Below, one piece after another: positions 29,420 through 41,098 of a stretch of 64,000 nucleotides of DNA. Under the pieces are notes generated by a model. It saw nothing but the letters and a program-made list of their open reading frames with translations. It did not search any database and was not told where the DNA came from. Position 1 is the stretch's first letter. Each line of letters starts with the position of its first letter. Position numbers and translations under genes: made by a program. Source of the stretch: Urechidicola croceus. Lineage in GTDB: Bacteria; Bacteroidota; Bacteroidia; Flavobacteriales; Flavobacteriaceae. The stretch spans positions 1,246,001-1,310,000 of the forward strand of contig NZ_CP017478.1 of the NCBI RefSeq assembly GCF_001761325.1, read 5' to 3'.

Positions 29420-29998
29420 ATGGATAAGTTTTTAAACTTTGTTAAAAACACGTCTCCACTATCTGAAAGATCACTGGAAGAATTTAAAAAAATTTTAACT
29501 ACTGTAGAATATTCATCAGGTAGTAAACTGTGCGAAATTGGTGAAATACCTCAAGATATATATTTCTTAGAATCAGGAATTATCAGAGGTTTTTTGATTT
29601 CTCATAAAGGTAATGAATATAACAGAACAATTTTTATTGAAAATAGTATTGTAGGAGCATATTCTTCATTAATTGAAAAGTTACCATCATTATATACTCT
29701 AGAATGTATAACAGATTGTAAATTGATTAAATGCAATTATAATAAATATATTAAATTATTAGAAACTTATAATGATATAGGTACTTTTCATAGAAAAAAT
29801 GTTGAGCAATTCTATGTTTTTCTATCTCACAGACGAAATGAACTTTTAACTTTAGATGCTACTCAACGTTATATCAATTTAAGAGATAGGATTTCTAATA
29901 TTGATAATTTACTAAGTCAAAAAGTTATTGCATCTCACTTAGGTATTACCAATATTCAATTAAGTAGAATTAGAAAAAAACTATTAATTAACCAATAA
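29420..29998 (+). CDS. Crp/Fnr family transcriptional regulator, paralogue 1
   Basis: The 192-residue protein has an N-terminal cyclic-nucleotide-binding-like beta domain (about 25-120, with GSKLCEIGEIPQDIYFLESG) and a C-terminal Crp-type helix-turn-helix (SQKVIASHLGITNIQLSRIRKKL, about 165-188). The phosphate-binding Arg of Crp is not visible, so cAMP binding is doubtful. It shares the motif ECITDC with paralogues 2 and 3. It is followed after 10 bp by paralogue 2. Its likely targets are the TTAAC-N4-GTTAA sites in the next 3 kb (inference). Confidence 0.9.
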   Translation: MDKFLNFVKNTSPLSERSLEEFKKILTTVEYSSGSKLCEIGEIPQDIYFLESGIIRGFLISHKGNEYNRTIFIENSIVGAYSSLIEKLPSLYTLECITDCKLIKCNYNKYIKLLETYNDIGTFHRKNVEQFYVFLSHRRNELLTLDATQRYINLRDRISNIDNLLSQKVIASHLGITNIQLSRIRKKLLINQ

Positions 29999-30008
29999 AG
30001 AATTTCTT

Positions 30009-30581
30009 TTGAATCGCCTTATAGAACATATTAATAAAACACATTCATTATCAGCAACATCATGGGTGGAATTAAATAAAATTATTACTTATAAAAAAGT
30101 AAGACAAGGCTCTAAATTAATAGAAATAGGAAATAAGCCTAAATATTTTTATTTTCTCATAACTGGTATAGTAAGAGTTTATACAATCACTAAAAATGGG
30201 AAGGAATCAAATAGTCTATTAATACCTGAATATAATTACTTTGCCCCTTTCACTTCTTTAATATTAGATTCTCCATCAGCGGTAACTGTTGAGTGTCTTA
30301 CAGATTGTGAATTGGCAGAATGTAACTATAAACTTTTTATAAAACTTGCTGATGAATATACAGACATCAATATATTACATCGTAAAAATTTAGAAAAAAT
30401 ATTTATTAATTCTGAAAAAAGGGATATAGAATTAACCACATTAACTGCAACAGAAAGATATATTGCTTTAAAAAATAGAATACCAAATATTGATAATTTA
30501 ATAACTCAAAAGCACATCGCATCCCACATTGGTATAACTGCAGTTCAACTAAGTCGATTAAAAAAACAACTTTTTACCTAA
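30009..30581 (+). CDS. Crp/Fnr family transcriptional regulator, paralogue 2
   Basis: The 190-residue paralogue has the same domains as its neighbour: a cNMP-like domain with GSKLIEIGNKPKYFYFLITG, ECLTDC near 97, and helix-turn-helix SQKHIASHIGITAVQLSRLKKQL-like at the C-terminus (a T replaces the S at its start). The start is TTG. This choice is supported because the N-terminus then aligns residue for residue with paralogues 1 and 3. It is probably co-transcribed with paralogue 1. A small-RNA promoter starts 23 bp after its stop codon. Confidence 0.88.
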   Translation: MNRLIEHINKTHSLSATSWVELNKIITYKKVRQGSKLIEIGNKPKYFYFLITGIVRVYTITKNGKESNSLLIPEYNYFAPFTSLILDSPSAVTVECLTDCELAECNYKLFIKLADEYTDINILHRKNLEKIFINSEKRDIELTTLTATERYIALKNRIPNIDNLITQKHIASHIGITAVQLSRLKKQLFT

Positions 30582-30603
30582 TAATTAACCACTTACAAAA
30601 ATC

Positions 30604-30648
30604 ATTAACATTTGTTAATCAATAAAATTAATTAATAAATTACATTTG
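30604..30648 (+). promoter_or_regulatory. Operator-promoter A: TTAAC-N4-GTTAA site with -7 box
   Basis: The palindrome ATTAACATTTGTTAAT (30604-30619, centre 30611.5) precedes TACATTTG (30641-30648), a full TAnnTTTG match. From palindrome centre to the first base of the -7 box is 29.5 bp, about -41.5 from the inferred start. The palindrome replaces the -33 element, as in class II Crp/Fnr promoters. Confidence 0.7.
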
Positions 30649-30654
30649 TCTTGT

Positions 30655-30778
30655 ATTTACTTACGGTTATTTTATAATAAATGTACCCCATAGACTTATT
30701 AAATAACAAAGAATACAAACTTACCTTCATAGGTTAATTATAGGAGACGAAAAGCCCAATGAAAATTGGGCTTTTTTA
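30655..30778 (+). ncRNA. Predicted small RNA A (C-rich loop)
   Basis: The unit is about 124 nt from the start inferred after the -7 box to the terminator. The terminator is AAGCCCAAT-GAAA-ATTGGGCTT followed by Ts (30752-30777). A second hairpin pairs GTTATTT (30666-30672) with AAATAAC (30701-30707), continued by AATAA/TTATT, and presents ACCCCATAG in the loop. No open reading frame of note is present. The RNA and its structure are predictions from the DNA. Confidence 0.6.
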
Positions 30779-30813
30779 TTTATATATGGTATATAGATAT
30801 TTAAATAAAATCC

Positions 30814-30858
30814 GTTAACAAATGTTAACAATCACCTAATCATTTATTTATATCTTTC
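30814..30858 (+). promoter_or_regulatory. Operator-promoter B: TTAAC-N4-GTTAA site with -7 box
   Basis: The palindrome GTTAACAAATGTTAAC (30814-30829, centre 30821.5) precedes TATCTTTC (30851-30858), one mismatch from TAnnTTTG. The spacing is again exactly 29.5 bp. Confidence 0.65.
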
Positions 30859-30864
30859 AAAAAA

Positions 30865-30988
30865 AGGTTTTATCAACTTCTTTTCAATTGTTTTGGGGTA
30901 TTGAATGGAATTATAAAATCATTTTCTTCATAAATTTTAAAGGATGAAGACTTAAGAGTTCAATTTAATAAATTGAACTCTTTTTTTA
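30865..30988 (+). ncRNA. Predicted small RNA B (G-rich loop, possible sponge)
   Basis: The unit is about 124 nt and ends in a perfect 13-bp hairpin (AAGAGTTCAATTT at 30954-30966 with 30970-30982) and a T-run. Near its 5' end TTCAAT (30883-30888) pairs with ATTGAA (30900-30905) and presents the loop TGTTTTGGGGT. TTTTGGGG is the reverse complement of the CCCCAAA(A) motifs in units C and F. It may therefore bind sibling RNAs, or have its own targets. Prediction only. Confidence 0.58.
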
Positions 30989-31002
30989 ATATATTTCTAC
31001 TA

Positions 31003-31048
31003 CAACATTAACTTTATTAACAATTTAACCTACTCAAACGTTTACTTA
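31003..31048 (+). repeat. Upstream box shared with unit F, copy 1
   Basis: CAACATTAACT (31003-31013) and ACTCAAACGTTTACTTA (31032-31048) recur upstream of unit F at 32398-32422, there run together. The core AAACGTTT is a palindrome. The longer box ends 24 bp before operator C. It looks like a second regulatory site or a trace of cassette duplication. Confidence 0.55.
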
Positions 31049-31071
31049 ACACAATTAGCCATAATTGTTTC

Positions 31072-31115
31072 TTAACATATGTTAATGCTCATTGTTTAAT
31101 GAGTACTTACATTTA
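31072..31115 (+). promoter_or_regulatory. Operator-promoter C: TTAAC-N4-GTTAA site with -7 box
   Basis: TTAACATATGTTAA (31072-31085, centre 31078.5) is a perfect palindrome. TACATTTA (31108-31115), one mismatch from TAnnTTTG, begins exactly 29.5 bp from its centre. Confidence 0.66.
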
Positions 31116-31121
31116 CATATT

Positions 31122-31286
31122 GTTAGTTCCCACTAAAAGTAATTTTAAGAAAGCACATAGATCATCGGAATTAGTTTATTCCCCACACGAATAGTAGTAT
31201 TGGAAAATCTTCATTTATGAACAACCCCAAAAACTATTGCTAATTCCGGTATACTCGAACCCAACATTTGTTGGGTTCTTTTTTTT
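31122..31286 (+). ncRNA. Predicted small RNA C (two CCCCA motifs)
   Basis: The longest unit, about 165 nt. It ends in GAACCCAACA/TGTTGGGTTC (31257-31278) and eight Ts. A long-range 9-bp stem CGGAATTAG (31166-31174) with CTAATTCCG (31240-31248) closes a domain. Inside it AATAGT (31190-31195) pairs with ACTATT (31233-31238). Both CCCCA motifs, TATTCCCCACAC and AACCCCAAAAAC, fall in unpaired segments of this fold. The paired arms support a structured RNA rather than a spacer. Confidence 0.62.
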
Positions 31287-31370
31287 ACAAAAAAAATAAT
31301 CATAACACACACTATACCAAGCATTTAATCGTTAAAACATCAATAGCATAATATTTTAATGTTTTTTTGT

Positions 31371-31460
31371 TCCCCATAACAAAGTTTCAGATAAAACAAT
31401 TAATCCCAAAGTGAATTTATCTGAAGGTGGGGCTTCATTTGAAGCCCTATTTTGTTTTAA
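31371..31460 (+). ncRNA. Predicted small RNA D (degenerate promoter)
   Basis: The unit begins near GTTCCCCATAAC. It has a perfect 10-bp stem TTCAGATAAA (31386-31395) with TTTATCTGAA (31416-31425) whose loop contains ATCCCAAAG. It ends in GGGCTTCA/TGAAGCCC (31430-31447), but the following tract TATTTTGTTTT is a weak terminator. Upstream only the half-site GTTAA (31331-31335) and a poor AATGTTTT (31358-31365) occur, at the spacing of the other units. It may be a decayed cassette, or a leader of paralogue 3. Confidence 0.42.
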
Positions 31461-31563
31461 AAACCATTTGCAACATGCCAAGATTATATTTATATTGTGA
31501 AACAATTTTGAAATTGCTATTGAAATTTAGCGTTAATTATATTTTAAAACTAATTCCCACAAT

Positions 31564-32148
31564 TTGAAAACATTAATAAATTACCTAAATCAAATCAGTC
31601 CAATTTCAAATACATCTATTAAAAAATTTGATGAGATTTTTCAATATAAAAACTACAATTCAAATGATAAATTATGTGAATTTGGTCAAATACCAGATAA
31701 AGTTCATTACTTAATATCTGGTGTAGTAAGAATATATATGATTACTGATAAAGGAACAGAATATAACCGTACTATATATTCTGATGGAAATATTTTAGGG
31801 GCACTTGGTTCACTTATAAAAAATAAGCCATCTGAATATACAATTGAGTGCTTGACCGATTGTACAATTATTGAAGCAAACTATAATAAAATAATTGAAA
31901 TTTCTGAAAAATATTTAGATGTTGCTATTTTACATAGAAAGTTTTTAGAAAATTTTTATATACACCATACCAATATAAATGTTGAACTTATTACACTCAA
32001 CGCAACTGAAAGATATTATAGATTAAGAGAACGAATTCCTAATATTGACAACTTAATAAGTCAAAAACATATAGCTTCATACTTGGGAATCACAGCTGTA
32101 CAGTTTAGCAGATTGAAAAAAACTTTTTTTCAAAAAGCCGTTAATTAA
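31564..32148 (+). CDS. Crp/Fnr family transcriptional regulator, paralogue 3
   Basis: The 194-residue paralogue has a cNMP-like domain (DKLCEFGQIPDKVHYLISG), ECLTDC near 97 and the helix-turn-helix SQKHIASYLGITAVQFSRLKK. Its start is TTG, supported by end-to-end alignment with the other two paralogues. The recognition helix is nearly the same in all three, so they probably read the same or similar DNA sites. Its last codons overlap operator E. It is embedded among small-RNA units on both sides. Confidence 0.89.
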   Translation: MKTLINYLNQISPISNTSIKKFDEIFQYKNYNSNDKLCEFGQIPDKVHYLISGVVRIYMITDKGTEYNRTIYSDGNILGALGSLIKNKPSEYTIECLTDCTIIEANYNKIIEISEKYLDVAILHRKFLENFYIHHTNINVELITLNATERYYRLRERIPNIDNLISQKHIASYLGITAVQFSRLKKTFFQKAVN

Positions 32149-32188
32149 CATAGGTTAACTTCTATTAGAGAAATCATTTGTAATTTTA
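32145..32188 (+). promoter_or_regulatory. Operator-promoter E: TTAAC-N4-GTTAA site with -7 box
   Basis: TTAACATAGGTTAA (32145-32158, centre 32151.5) overlaps the stop codon of Crp/Fnr paralogue 3. TAATTTTA (32181-32188), one mismatch from TAnnTTTG, again starts 29.5 bp from its centre. Confidence 0.65.
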
Positions 32189-32194
32189 TTTTAT

Positions 32195-32294
32195 ATTAAA
32201 ATTTTACCCAAACACTCTAATATGTAATTATCTCCATGGAGATGGAGTTAACTAAAAGTATAAAAAAAGAGATTCAATATTGAATCTCTTTTTT
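32195..32294 (+). ncRNA. Predicted small RNA E
   Basis: The unit is about 100 nt. ACCCAAACAC lies near its 5' end. A hairpin CTCCAT-GGAG-ATGGAG (32232-32247) follows. It ends in the palindromic terminator AGAGATTCAAT/ATTGAATCTCT with a T-run (to 32294). No coding potential was seen. Prediction only. Confidence 0.57.
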
Positions 32295-32397
32295 ATGCAA
32301 TTAGTATTAAAATTTCATTACAACCAATTTTGATTGAATAATAAAATACTTATTCTACTTATTTTTTTCTCATTCAAGTATTAATTTTTAGACTTAT

Positions 32398-32438
32398 CAA
32401 CATTAACTCAAACGTTTACTTACTAACGAAAACGTTTT
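32398..32438 (+). repeat. Upstream box shared with unit C, copy 2
   Basis: CAACATTAACT directly joined to CAAACGTTTACTTA (32398-32422) repeats the elements upstream of unit C. A further palindrome AAAACGTTTT follows at 32429-32438. The boxes end 12-28 bp before operator F. Confidence 0.5.
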
Positions 32439-32449
32439 AAAAATACAAA

Positions 32450-32493
32450 TTAACATTTGTTAAACATCATACAATCAATAAGTTGTAGTTTTG
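32450..32493 (+). promoter_or_regulatory. Operator-promoter F: TTAAC-N4-GTTAA site with -7 box
   Basis: TTAACATTTGTTAA (32450-32463, centre 32456.5) precedes TAGTTTTG (32486-32493), a full TAnnTTTG match, at the invariant 29.5-bp spacing. Its palindrome core is identical to that of unit A. Confidence 0.7.
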
Positions 32494-32499
32494 TACTGT

Positions 32500-32632
32500 T
32501 AAAAAAGACTAGAATATACTACATAATATTTTCCCTAATTAGGGATCCCCATATCGGAAGTTCAGCATAAATAATCCCCCAAAGATTATTTAACTGAATA
32601 AAAAAGGACTCAGTAATGAGTCCTTTATTTTT
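32500..32632 (+). ncRNA. Predicted small RNA F (CCCCAAA hairpin loop)
   Basis: The unit is about 133 nt. CCCTAATTAGGG is followed by ATCCCCATATCGG. Then an outer stem TTCAG (32561-32565)/CTGAA (32594-32598) encloses an 8-bp stem AAATAATC (32569-32576)/GATTATTT (32584-32591) with the loop CCCCAAA. The RNA ends in the terminator at 32601-32632. The loop is complementary to the UUUUGGGG loop of RNA B. Prediction only. Confidence 0.62.
32601..32632. terminator. Bidirectional terminator between small RNA F and ettA
   Basis: AAAGGACTCA (32603-32612) and TGAGTCCTTT (32617-32626) pair around GTAA. T-rich tracts flank both sides, so it can end RNA F on the plus strand and ettA on the minus strand, whose stop codon is 22 bp away. 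Confidence 0.75.
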
Positions 32633-32653
32633 ATACTTATATGTGAAATTAAA

Positions 32654-40457: not shown

Positions 40458-41060
40458 ATGATTTTTTATGGAACTAAAGGCTCTTTAATACACACTGAGC
40501 AAACCCAAAGTGTAAAATGCAATTCTTGCAATCAACAATCGCAACATACTGTAAGTATTTTTGGTAAATATGCTTATATATATTGGATTCCGATTTTCCC
40601 AATTGGTAAAAAAGGAGTCTCAGAATGTAACCATTGTAAAGCAACTTTTGAAAAAAAAGACATGAGCGAGCAGTTAAAACTCGCTTGTCAAAATATAAAT
40701 ACCAATGTTAGAACACCCCTAAAATATTGGAGCGGAATGGCAATTATTGCTGCACTAATAGGATTTGCAATGTATTCTAGTAATCAACATAAAGAAGATG
40801 TTGCTCAATTTATTGAATCTCCATTAGCAGGTGATATAGTTGAATATAAAACAAATGATTTTTTTACTACTTTTAAAATAATGTCAGTTACTTCTGATTC
40901 TATTTTTGTGATTGATAATGACTACGAAATAGAAAGTAAAAGTGCTATTTATAAAATAGATAAAGACGAAAATTATACTACCGAACCGTATTCAATATCA
41001 AGAACTCGTTATAAAGAATTGTTTACAGACAAAACACTCCTAGATATTGATAGAGATTAA
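40458..41060 (+). CDS. Zinc-ribbon membrane protein
   Basis: The 200-residue protein has an N-terminal zinc-ribbon with CNSCNQQS (about 22) and CNHCKATFEKK (about 55), matching the zinc_ribbon_15-like layout with YIYWIPIFPIGKKG between. One membrane segment follows (about 90-107, WSGMAIIAALIGFAMY). The rest faces the other side of the membrane. Function unknown. It ends before a strong bidirectional terminator. Confidence 0.8.
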   Translation: MIFYGTKGSLIHTEQTQSVKCNSCNQQSQHTVSIFGKYAYIYWIPIFPIGKKGVSECNHCKATFEKKDMSEQLKLACQNINTNVRTPLKYWSGMAIIAALIGFAMYSSNQHKEDVAQFIESPLAGDIVEYKTNDFFTTFKIMSVTSDSIFVIDNDYEIESKSAIYKIDKDENYTTEPYSISRTRYKELFTDKTLLDIDRD

Positions 41061-41066
41061 CACCAA

Positions 41067-41098
41067 TAAAAAATCCGCCAATCGGCGGATTTTTTATT
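41067..41098. terminator. Bidirectional terminator between the zinc-ribbon and VWA genes
   Basis: AATCCGCC (41072-41079) and GGCGGATT (41084-41091) pair around AATC, with A-rich and T-rich flanks that give U-tails on both strands. It lies between two convergent genes. Confidence 0.85.

Follow-up and report, generated by a model that had tools for sequence, protein, structure and literature searches.

Our findings concern an array of small-RNA units and Crp/Fnr-family regulator genes in Urechidicola croceus (contig NZ_CP017478.1, positions 1,246,001 to 1,310,000, a stretch of 64,000 nucleotides (nt) that we call the window), and the comparison with related genomes indicates that the observation is real and conserved and points to a widespread regulatory circuit. 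The array, which is built around three regulator genes (r1, r2 and r3) and six units (A to F), is probably a tandem expansion of a conserved regulator-operator-small-RNA module, whose RNAs would be activated from -41.5 and would act by pairing. In the module that we propose, the gene for a regulator of one Crp/Fnr subfamily would be followed, at or just behind its stop codon, by the operator TTAACAWWTGTTAA, by a sigma-A type -7 box 36 nt on, and by a small-RNA gene with an intrinsic terminator. Dimers of r1, r2 and r3 would bind at -41.5 and activate the unit promoters upon a signal, and we infer that the RNAs then pair with other transcripts through unpaired C-rich segments, which are CCCC in units A, C, D and F and CTAACCAACC in the RNA found across the family. 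Because a single operator sequence is shared among three paralogous regulators, cross-regulation of the units is probable. The features of the array are as follows, each -7 box lying at +36 from the start of its operator and lengths of proteins being given in amino acids (aa):

29420-29998, + strand: r1, Crp/Fnr-family regulator, 192 aa; PF00027 at 1.6e-8; subclade with the first copies of genus relatives
30009-30581, + strand: r2, Crp/Fnr-family regulator, 190 aa, TTG start; PF00027 at 1e-12; subclade of second copies
30605-30618, + strand: operator A, TTAACATTTGTTAA; 23 nt 3' of r2
30641-30648, + strand: -7 box A, TACATTTG
30653-30777, + strand: predicted small RNA A with CCCC, about 125 nt; terminator 30749-30776
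30815-30828, + strand: operator B, TTAACAAATGTTAA; perfect pattern match
30851-30858, + strand: -7 box B, TATCTTTC
30863-30987, + strand: predicted small RNA B with GGGG hairpin loop, about 125 nt; terminator 30954-30982
31032-31048, + strand: 17-nt element ACTCAAACGTTTACTTA upstream of operator C
31072-31085, + strand: operator C, TTAACATATGTTAA; perfect pattern match
31108-31115, + strand: -7 box C, TACATTTA
31120-31286, + strand: predicted small RNA C with two CCCC motifs, about 167 nt, related to an RNA of a same-genus genome (G011); terminator 31257-31278
31345-31455, + strand: unit D, RNA body related to F, operator not recognisable; terminator-like hairpin at about 31430-31447
31564-32148, + strand: r3, Crp/Fnr-family regulator, 194 aa, TTG start; PF00027 at 1.1e-11
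32145-32158, + strand: operator E, TTAACATAGGTTAA; overlaps the r3 stop codon
32181-32188, + strand: -7 box E, TAATTTTA
32193-32294, + strand: predicted small RNA E, about 102 nt, in the place that the family-wide RNA takes elsewhere; terminator 32263-32294
32406-32422, + strand: 17-nt element ACTCAAACGTTTACTTA, identical copy, upstream of operator F
32450-32463, + strand: operator F, TTAACATTTGTTAA; same sequence as operator A
32486-32493, + strand: -7 box F, TAGTTTTG
32498-32632, + strand: predicted small RNA F with two runs of at least four C, about 135 nt; terminator 32603-32626

A preliminary description of this DNA had drawn attention to five TTAAC-N4-GTTAA palindromes, each with a -7-like box, and these are borne out by the counts. 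Five perfect operators (starting at 30605, 30815, 31072, 32145 and 32450) lie within 30605-32463; 0.27 are expected in the entire 64-kb window, and none of 100 shuffles reaches five. The enrichment is local only and not genome-wide, as the whole 3.43-Mb genome, a single contig, holds 18 such sites compared with 30 for a reversed-pattern control, and with one mismatch allowed the window holds nine matches compared with 7.5 expected. In all five units the distance from the start of the operator to the start of TAnnTTT is exactly 36 nt. The primary sigma factor of Flavobacterium psychrophilum recognises a -7 box, TAnnTTTG, at -12 to -5, according to the accessible part of the published study (PMC9723704), and this distance therefore places the operator centre at a predicted -41.5, which is the class II CRP position. 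The predicted transcription starts of units A, B, C, E and F are accordingly 30653, 30863, 31120, 32193 and 32498. Within the genome, the combination of a perfect operator and a spacer of 21-23 nt to the box was found eight times and in the control not at all; with two mismatches allowed there were 44 and 45 matches versus 75 and 77 for the reversed control, hence only perfect matches were used. A perfect operator with spacer 22 defines six promoters genome-wide, each before an RNA-like unit, namely the five in the window and one on the minus strand at contig position 1226731, about 19 kb before the window, where the perfect operator is followed by TATATTTG, CCCC and a terminator, the unit lying behind a putative DoxX-like gene.

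The assignment of the three adjoining proteins as Crp/Fnr paralogues likewise stands. PF00027, the cyclic-nucleotide-binding-like N-terminal domain, scores above its curated cut-off in all three, and r1 is 46% identical to r2 and 47% to r3. No Pfam helix-turn-helix model matched any of them; an AF2 model of r3 (pLDDT 93.5) has the Crp/Fnr fold, matches CRP, GlxR and FNR chains at E values of about 1e-11 (most with TMq of 0.65-0.8), and places a predicted C-terminal winged helix-turn-helix in the Crp/Fnr arrangement. At the positions of E72, R82 and S83 of CRP, which we take to be cyclic AMP contacts under that numbering, the alignment of the regulator profile to 4i02 and 6dt4 has S, S and K, so these residues are not kept, and the N-terminal cysteine cluster that holds [4Fe-4S] in FNR is absent from the sequences of r1-r3. 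The signal of these regulators is probably not cyclic AMP.

The weight of our argument lies in the recurrence of the regulator-operator pair across the family. A first profile of r1-r3 found relatives in 30 of 119 genomes, own genome included, at E<=1e-30, and just behind many of their genes lay the operator. We then searched 299 genomes of the family for the operator, a spacer of 21-23 nt and TAnnTTT, which matched in at least 103 genomes, the operator counts from this search being lower bounds among the matches listed; a 32-row regulator profile (A4) matched 83 of the same 299 genomes at E<=1e-45. Among the 142 operator matches listed outside the own genome, 40 lie directly 3' of a same-strand regulator found by A4, and in every one of these the spacer is 22, compared with 33 of the 102 others, in which spacers of 21, 22 and 23 occur 24, 33 and 45 times. 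Regulators outside the own genome that match at E<=1.8e-76 have an operator and/or RNA directly downstream in 47 of 49 cases, and weaker ones in 3 of 46; most of the operator-adjacent regulators read in other genomes have r3 as their best match. The 40 adjacent operators listed span 34 other genera, a number that grows to 43 when RNA-only cases are added (own genus excluded). Of the 40 adjacent units read, 25 have an operator that runs into the 3' end of the regulator gene or follows it within 1 nt, and in the other 15 it lies 3-68 nt behind; operator E overlaps the end of r3 by 4 nt, which is also the commonest value, found in 18 of the 40. The preliminary description's suggestion that the regulators act on the adjoining small-RNA genes is thus supported at the level of sequence, since in 40 other genomes, from 34 other genera, genes of this subfamily are followed by an identical operator pattern with identical spacing. 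The exact common spacing, the fit to TTAACAWWTGTTAA, the overlap of operator E with the r3 stop codon, the unit at 1226731 and the conservation in the family go beyond that description.

An alignment of 52 chosen promoters (48 that fit the pattern and four near-matches picked by hand) gives TTAACAWWTGTTAA as the operator consensus, with A in 50 and T in 50 of the 52 at the inner positions that the search had left free. The -7 box ends with G at 39 of these sites and with A at 12, and 47 of them have a purine at the predicted start. TTTG near -33 occurs in one of the 52, about the level of chance, so no -33 box is kept. This lack would fit an activator-dependent promoter, activation itself being our inference. 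The same evidence bears on the opposite scheme, in which the operators serve repression and the regulators block promoters whose RNAs are produced in the absence of the signal. Polymerase could indeed also be blocked by an operator at -41.5. Repression tolerates varied operator spacing, whereas class II activation needs exact spacing, and the exact -41.5 spacing in 40 of the 40 adjacent promoters listed, together with the missing -33 TTTG in 51 of the 52 aligned, leads us to regard repression as improbable. Activation, that is, binding of the regulators at -41.5 and a switching-on of the RNAs, is well supported by this comparison of sequences.

Behind most of the regulator-adjacent promoters lies an RNA of about 85 nt, the family-wide RNA, predicted to begin with a 5' hairpin (GATTTCCTTT..AAAGGATT), which is followed by GATAGCTAACCAACC in unpaired form, then by an A-run and finally by a terminator. 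In the stem of the terminator, 8 of the 11 base pairs vary in both partners, and the C-rich motif CTAACCAACC has a mean unpaired probability of 0.84 over 37 RNAs. It is absent from Rfam as far as 10 further loci show: eight of these carry the family RNA, and none of the 10 has a match at threshold. R1, a covariance model built from 37 seeds and restricted to the transcript, matches 60 of the 299 genomes at E<=1e-3 with 62 matches, 47 of which are behind a listed regulator; among the 26 non-seed matches, 20 were read, and 11 of these adjoin a Crp gene (nine of them with an operator of at most one mismatch) and nine do not. At the level of the order, R1 matches four of 296 genomes, two of them strongly and both in the same family. 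The surroundings of the RNA recur as well: in one locus (L131) the convergent neighbour resembles class II fumarase and the upstream neighbour Asp/Glu racemase, both names being putative, and, as counted by eye, 32 of the 40 regulator-adjacent units are followed by the C-terminal end of a fumarase-like frame. A search for targets with GGTTGGTTAGC in 14 genomes gave 50 matches, of which 13 are the RNA genes themselves and 37 lie elsewhere, versus 25 for the reversed control. Across 30 loci, recurrent sites fall in two coding genes (in five and three genomes), 435 and 309 nt inside the frame, and one site lies within 60 nt of a start.

Within the window, the preliminary description had proposed non-coding bodies of about 100-165 nt, each closed by one of five intrinsic terminators, and our predictions agree closely. 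The five units measure 102-167 nt and hold no gene-sized frame, the two intergenic stretches of the array having no open reading frame of 60 aa or more. The terminators of A, B, C and F are predicted on the + strand; that of E, at 32263-32294, was listed by the prediction on the - strand, and its two 16-nt arms form a perfect inverted repeat, with T6 at the end. Unit D had been described as a degenerate sixth unit. It has no recognisable operator, there being none within two mismatches in 31287-31390 and the best candidate having three mismatches and being misplaced; its RNA body is related to that of F. The idea of a single RNA family holds in part. Five of 55 comparisons between RNA cores exceed a z of 3, and these include cores from two same-genus genomes with an RNA behind their regulators (G009 and G011): G009-G011 at 17.5, C-G011 at 6.8, D-F at 6.6, F-G011 at 4.4 and A-G009 at 3.3. 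Units C, D and F thus appear, from their sequences, to form a genus-level RNA family with exposed CCCC motifs, to which A is weakly similar; B and E have no partner above z 3 among the 55 pairs and are unplaced. A covariance model of C, D, F, G009 and G011 (R2) recovered only its seeds when 14 genomes of the genus were scanned at E<=0.1; in a separate scan it gave a weak match in the G004 locus (E 0.053). Runs of at least four C number seven in eight own-genome units, two of which lie outside the window, versus a mean of 2.5 in dinucleotide shuffles (P 0.002), and G runs number three versus 1.3 (P 0.07). The C4 runs of A, C, D and F have unpaired probabilities of 0.51-1.0, and such a run is absent from B and E.

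The possibility that the transcripts are small mRNAs for short peptides can be weighed against the same units. Some frames of 20-49 aa do occur in the array, and an operator-like site elsewhere in the genome (position 1762396, minus strand, spacer 21) precedes a frame of about 40 aa. Frames of at least 20 aa on the + strand that start inside the predicted transcript are found in C and D only, and none in A, B, E or F, and the family RNA varies in length and in its A-run, its core GATTGATAGCTAACC having stops in two frames; we consider this explanation very unlikely. Least credible of all is that the units are terminators with decoy operators that titrate the regulators and have no RNA function, as a cluster of operators beside regulator genes could bind regulator protein but would not keep a -7 box at an exact distance, a conserved RNA body and a terminator.

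The regulator tree (54 proteins, midpoint root) offers a view of how the array may have arisen. The 13 proteins of the genus group together (97/79) in two subclades, one with r1 and r3 (99/96) and one with r2 (98/98), and all five other genus genomes in the tree carry a regulator tandem with one protein per subclade. The same architecture extends to the RNA-paired group next to the genus and to one branch that belongs to neither (L159). BLASTN with the first intergenic half gave just short matches of 29-65 bases, in 11 of 80 relatives, so at this reach the bodies of the units show no conservation as DNA. The simplest reading of these sequences would be an old regulator-RNA pair that was duplicated in the genus and expanded in the species, its RNA bodies diverging or being replaced. 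By R1, the window RNAs do not belong to the family-wide RNA, unit E sharing its position only. More tentatively, and with somewhat less than even confidence, we suggest that in more than 40 genera this Crp/Fnr subfamily acts directly mainly on small-RNA genes, the target lying at the 3' end of the regulator gene itself, with the RNA body behind the fixed operator-promoter exchanged for unrelated RNAs in some lineages and the module grown here into a multi-RNA, multi-regulator switch.

Several observations weigh against the reading of the array as an expanded module, and we gather them here. The regulator is missing at E<=1e-30 from 7 of 13 other same-genus genomes, three of which are at least 92% complete, and two genomes (G001 and G003) keep regulators with no unit behind them. 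Both A4 and R1 were seeded from operator-adjacent loci, which makes the adjacency partly circular, and 15 of the 62 R1 matches are not behind a listed regulator. The absence of TTTG at -33 from 51 of 52 promoters shows only the lack of a box, since chance alone would produce few. In the family RNA, hairpin 1 is of no more than modest stability, with a mean z of -1.06 and 14 of 37 RNAs below -1. With default filters R1 misses the window units; with filters off, unit E is the best match of the array at 24.4 bits, and the reverse strand of the same terminator scores 22.4. Homology in sequence between unit E and the family RNA cannot be told apart from this terminator background, and the link between them is one of position. 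No recurrent target was found at translation starts in the GGTTGGTTAGC search, the recurrent sites lying deep inside coding genes. Duplex tests give no support to pairing between GGGG and CCCC units: the energies are not clearly better than those of shuffles (B-C z 0.0, B-F z +2.3; the best being U8-A at -2.0 and U8-D at -1.9, where U8 is the unit near 1018 kb of the contig), and the idea of a GGGG-CCCC sponge was dropped.

Regulator genes that lie beside the small-RNA gene they control are familiar from OxyR-OxyS, SgrR-SgrS and GcvA-GcvB, which are divergent pairs; here, unlike in those pairs, the promoter is at the 3' end of the regulator gene, runs in the same direction and is repeated. Small RNAs activated by a Crp/Fnr protein, such as FnrS, are likewise known. 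Here, by contrast, neither the array nor any of 10 related loci matches an Rfam family at threshold, and the strict operator-promoter set consists of six RNA-like units and not of a broad regulon. We know of few small RNAs with a known upstream switch in this phylum, which to our knowledge also lacks Hfq. As far as the accessible part of its description goes, PrfA of Listeria, also a Crp relative, offers a further likeness, since the operator TTAACAWWTGTTAA equals the PrfA box TTAACANNTGTTAA, which four of the five window operators fit fully and operator E with one mismatch. PrfA belongs to a different phylum, and the sites here precede small RNAs.

The LhrC1-5 RNAs of Listeria, in the portion of the source available to us (PMC4132741), are multicopy small RNAs with their own promoters. 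LisR controls them, and they carry C-rich (UCCC) motifs in loops and single-stranded stretches. The array is comparable in having several small-RNA units, five of them with a predicted promoter of their own, of which C, D, F and more weakly A appear related and have C4 runs, whereas the LhrC copies are described there as virtually identical and under two-component control, and the window units are diverse, linked to Crp/Fnr proteins and interleaved with regulator genes. Conserved flavobacterial small RNAs have been described in F. psychrophilum as Rfp18 and other Rfp RNAs (PMC9723704, accessible part). Rfp18 pairs through its third stem-loop according to that text, and the family RNA has two predicted hairpins, a comparison by description only; Crp/Fnr is not mentioned in the main text of the Rfp study. 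Our literature search, which mostly did not extend to subscription papers and supplements, found no description of such a regulator-small-RNA pair, the Rfp set being the nearest. The bacterial group is described in the accessible part of the same study as having no Shine-Dalgarno sequences (PMC9723704), and exposed C-rich motifs raise the question of what the RNAs target where Shine-Dalgarno sequences are unused. In 43 other genera the module supplies at once the regulator, its operator, the expected transcription start and the RNA, and because it recurs so widely, and because a single strain has five or six neighbouring units, the signal, activation and targets are directly testable.

A link to the Flavo-1 motif, which the preliminary description had wished to see compared, did not survive an Rfam search of the 64-kb window, in which only tRNAs reach threshold; Flavo-1 is not among the 17 matches in the array at E<=5, and those matches (a snoRNA, microRNAs and others) look like chance. 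Further observations concern sites of related kinds. At position 1017997 of the contig a perfect operator is followed by a GGGG stretch and a strong terminator, without TAnnTTT at +36, and this is possibly a differently spaced unit; the site at 1762396 may mark a small-protein target. The 17-nt element ACTCAAACGTTTACTTA has a counterpart in CAAACGTTAAC, which abuts the operator of the unit at 1226731, and three of the four CAAACGTTWAC sites of the genome sit at units C, F and 1226731, the reversed control having more matches overall; the element is a possible candidate for a second regulator site. In another family (f11), two loci (L084 and L087) have distant Crp genes with the same operator downstream, before a putative secreted-protein gene, which suggests that the operator may serve mRNAs elsewhere. 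Four loci (L075, L076, L077 and L079) have related Crp genes outside the RNA-paired clade, followed by palindromes of the ACATATGTAA or a similar type that precede protein genes; a sister subfamily perhaps has its site there. Elsewhere in the window, R1 has a weak match at 41012-41095 on the + strand (26.7 bits, E 0.021), with AUAG..UUAAC..ACCA and a terminator and without a perfect operator, and a cluster of five tRNA genes lies at 528-1184 on the minus strand.

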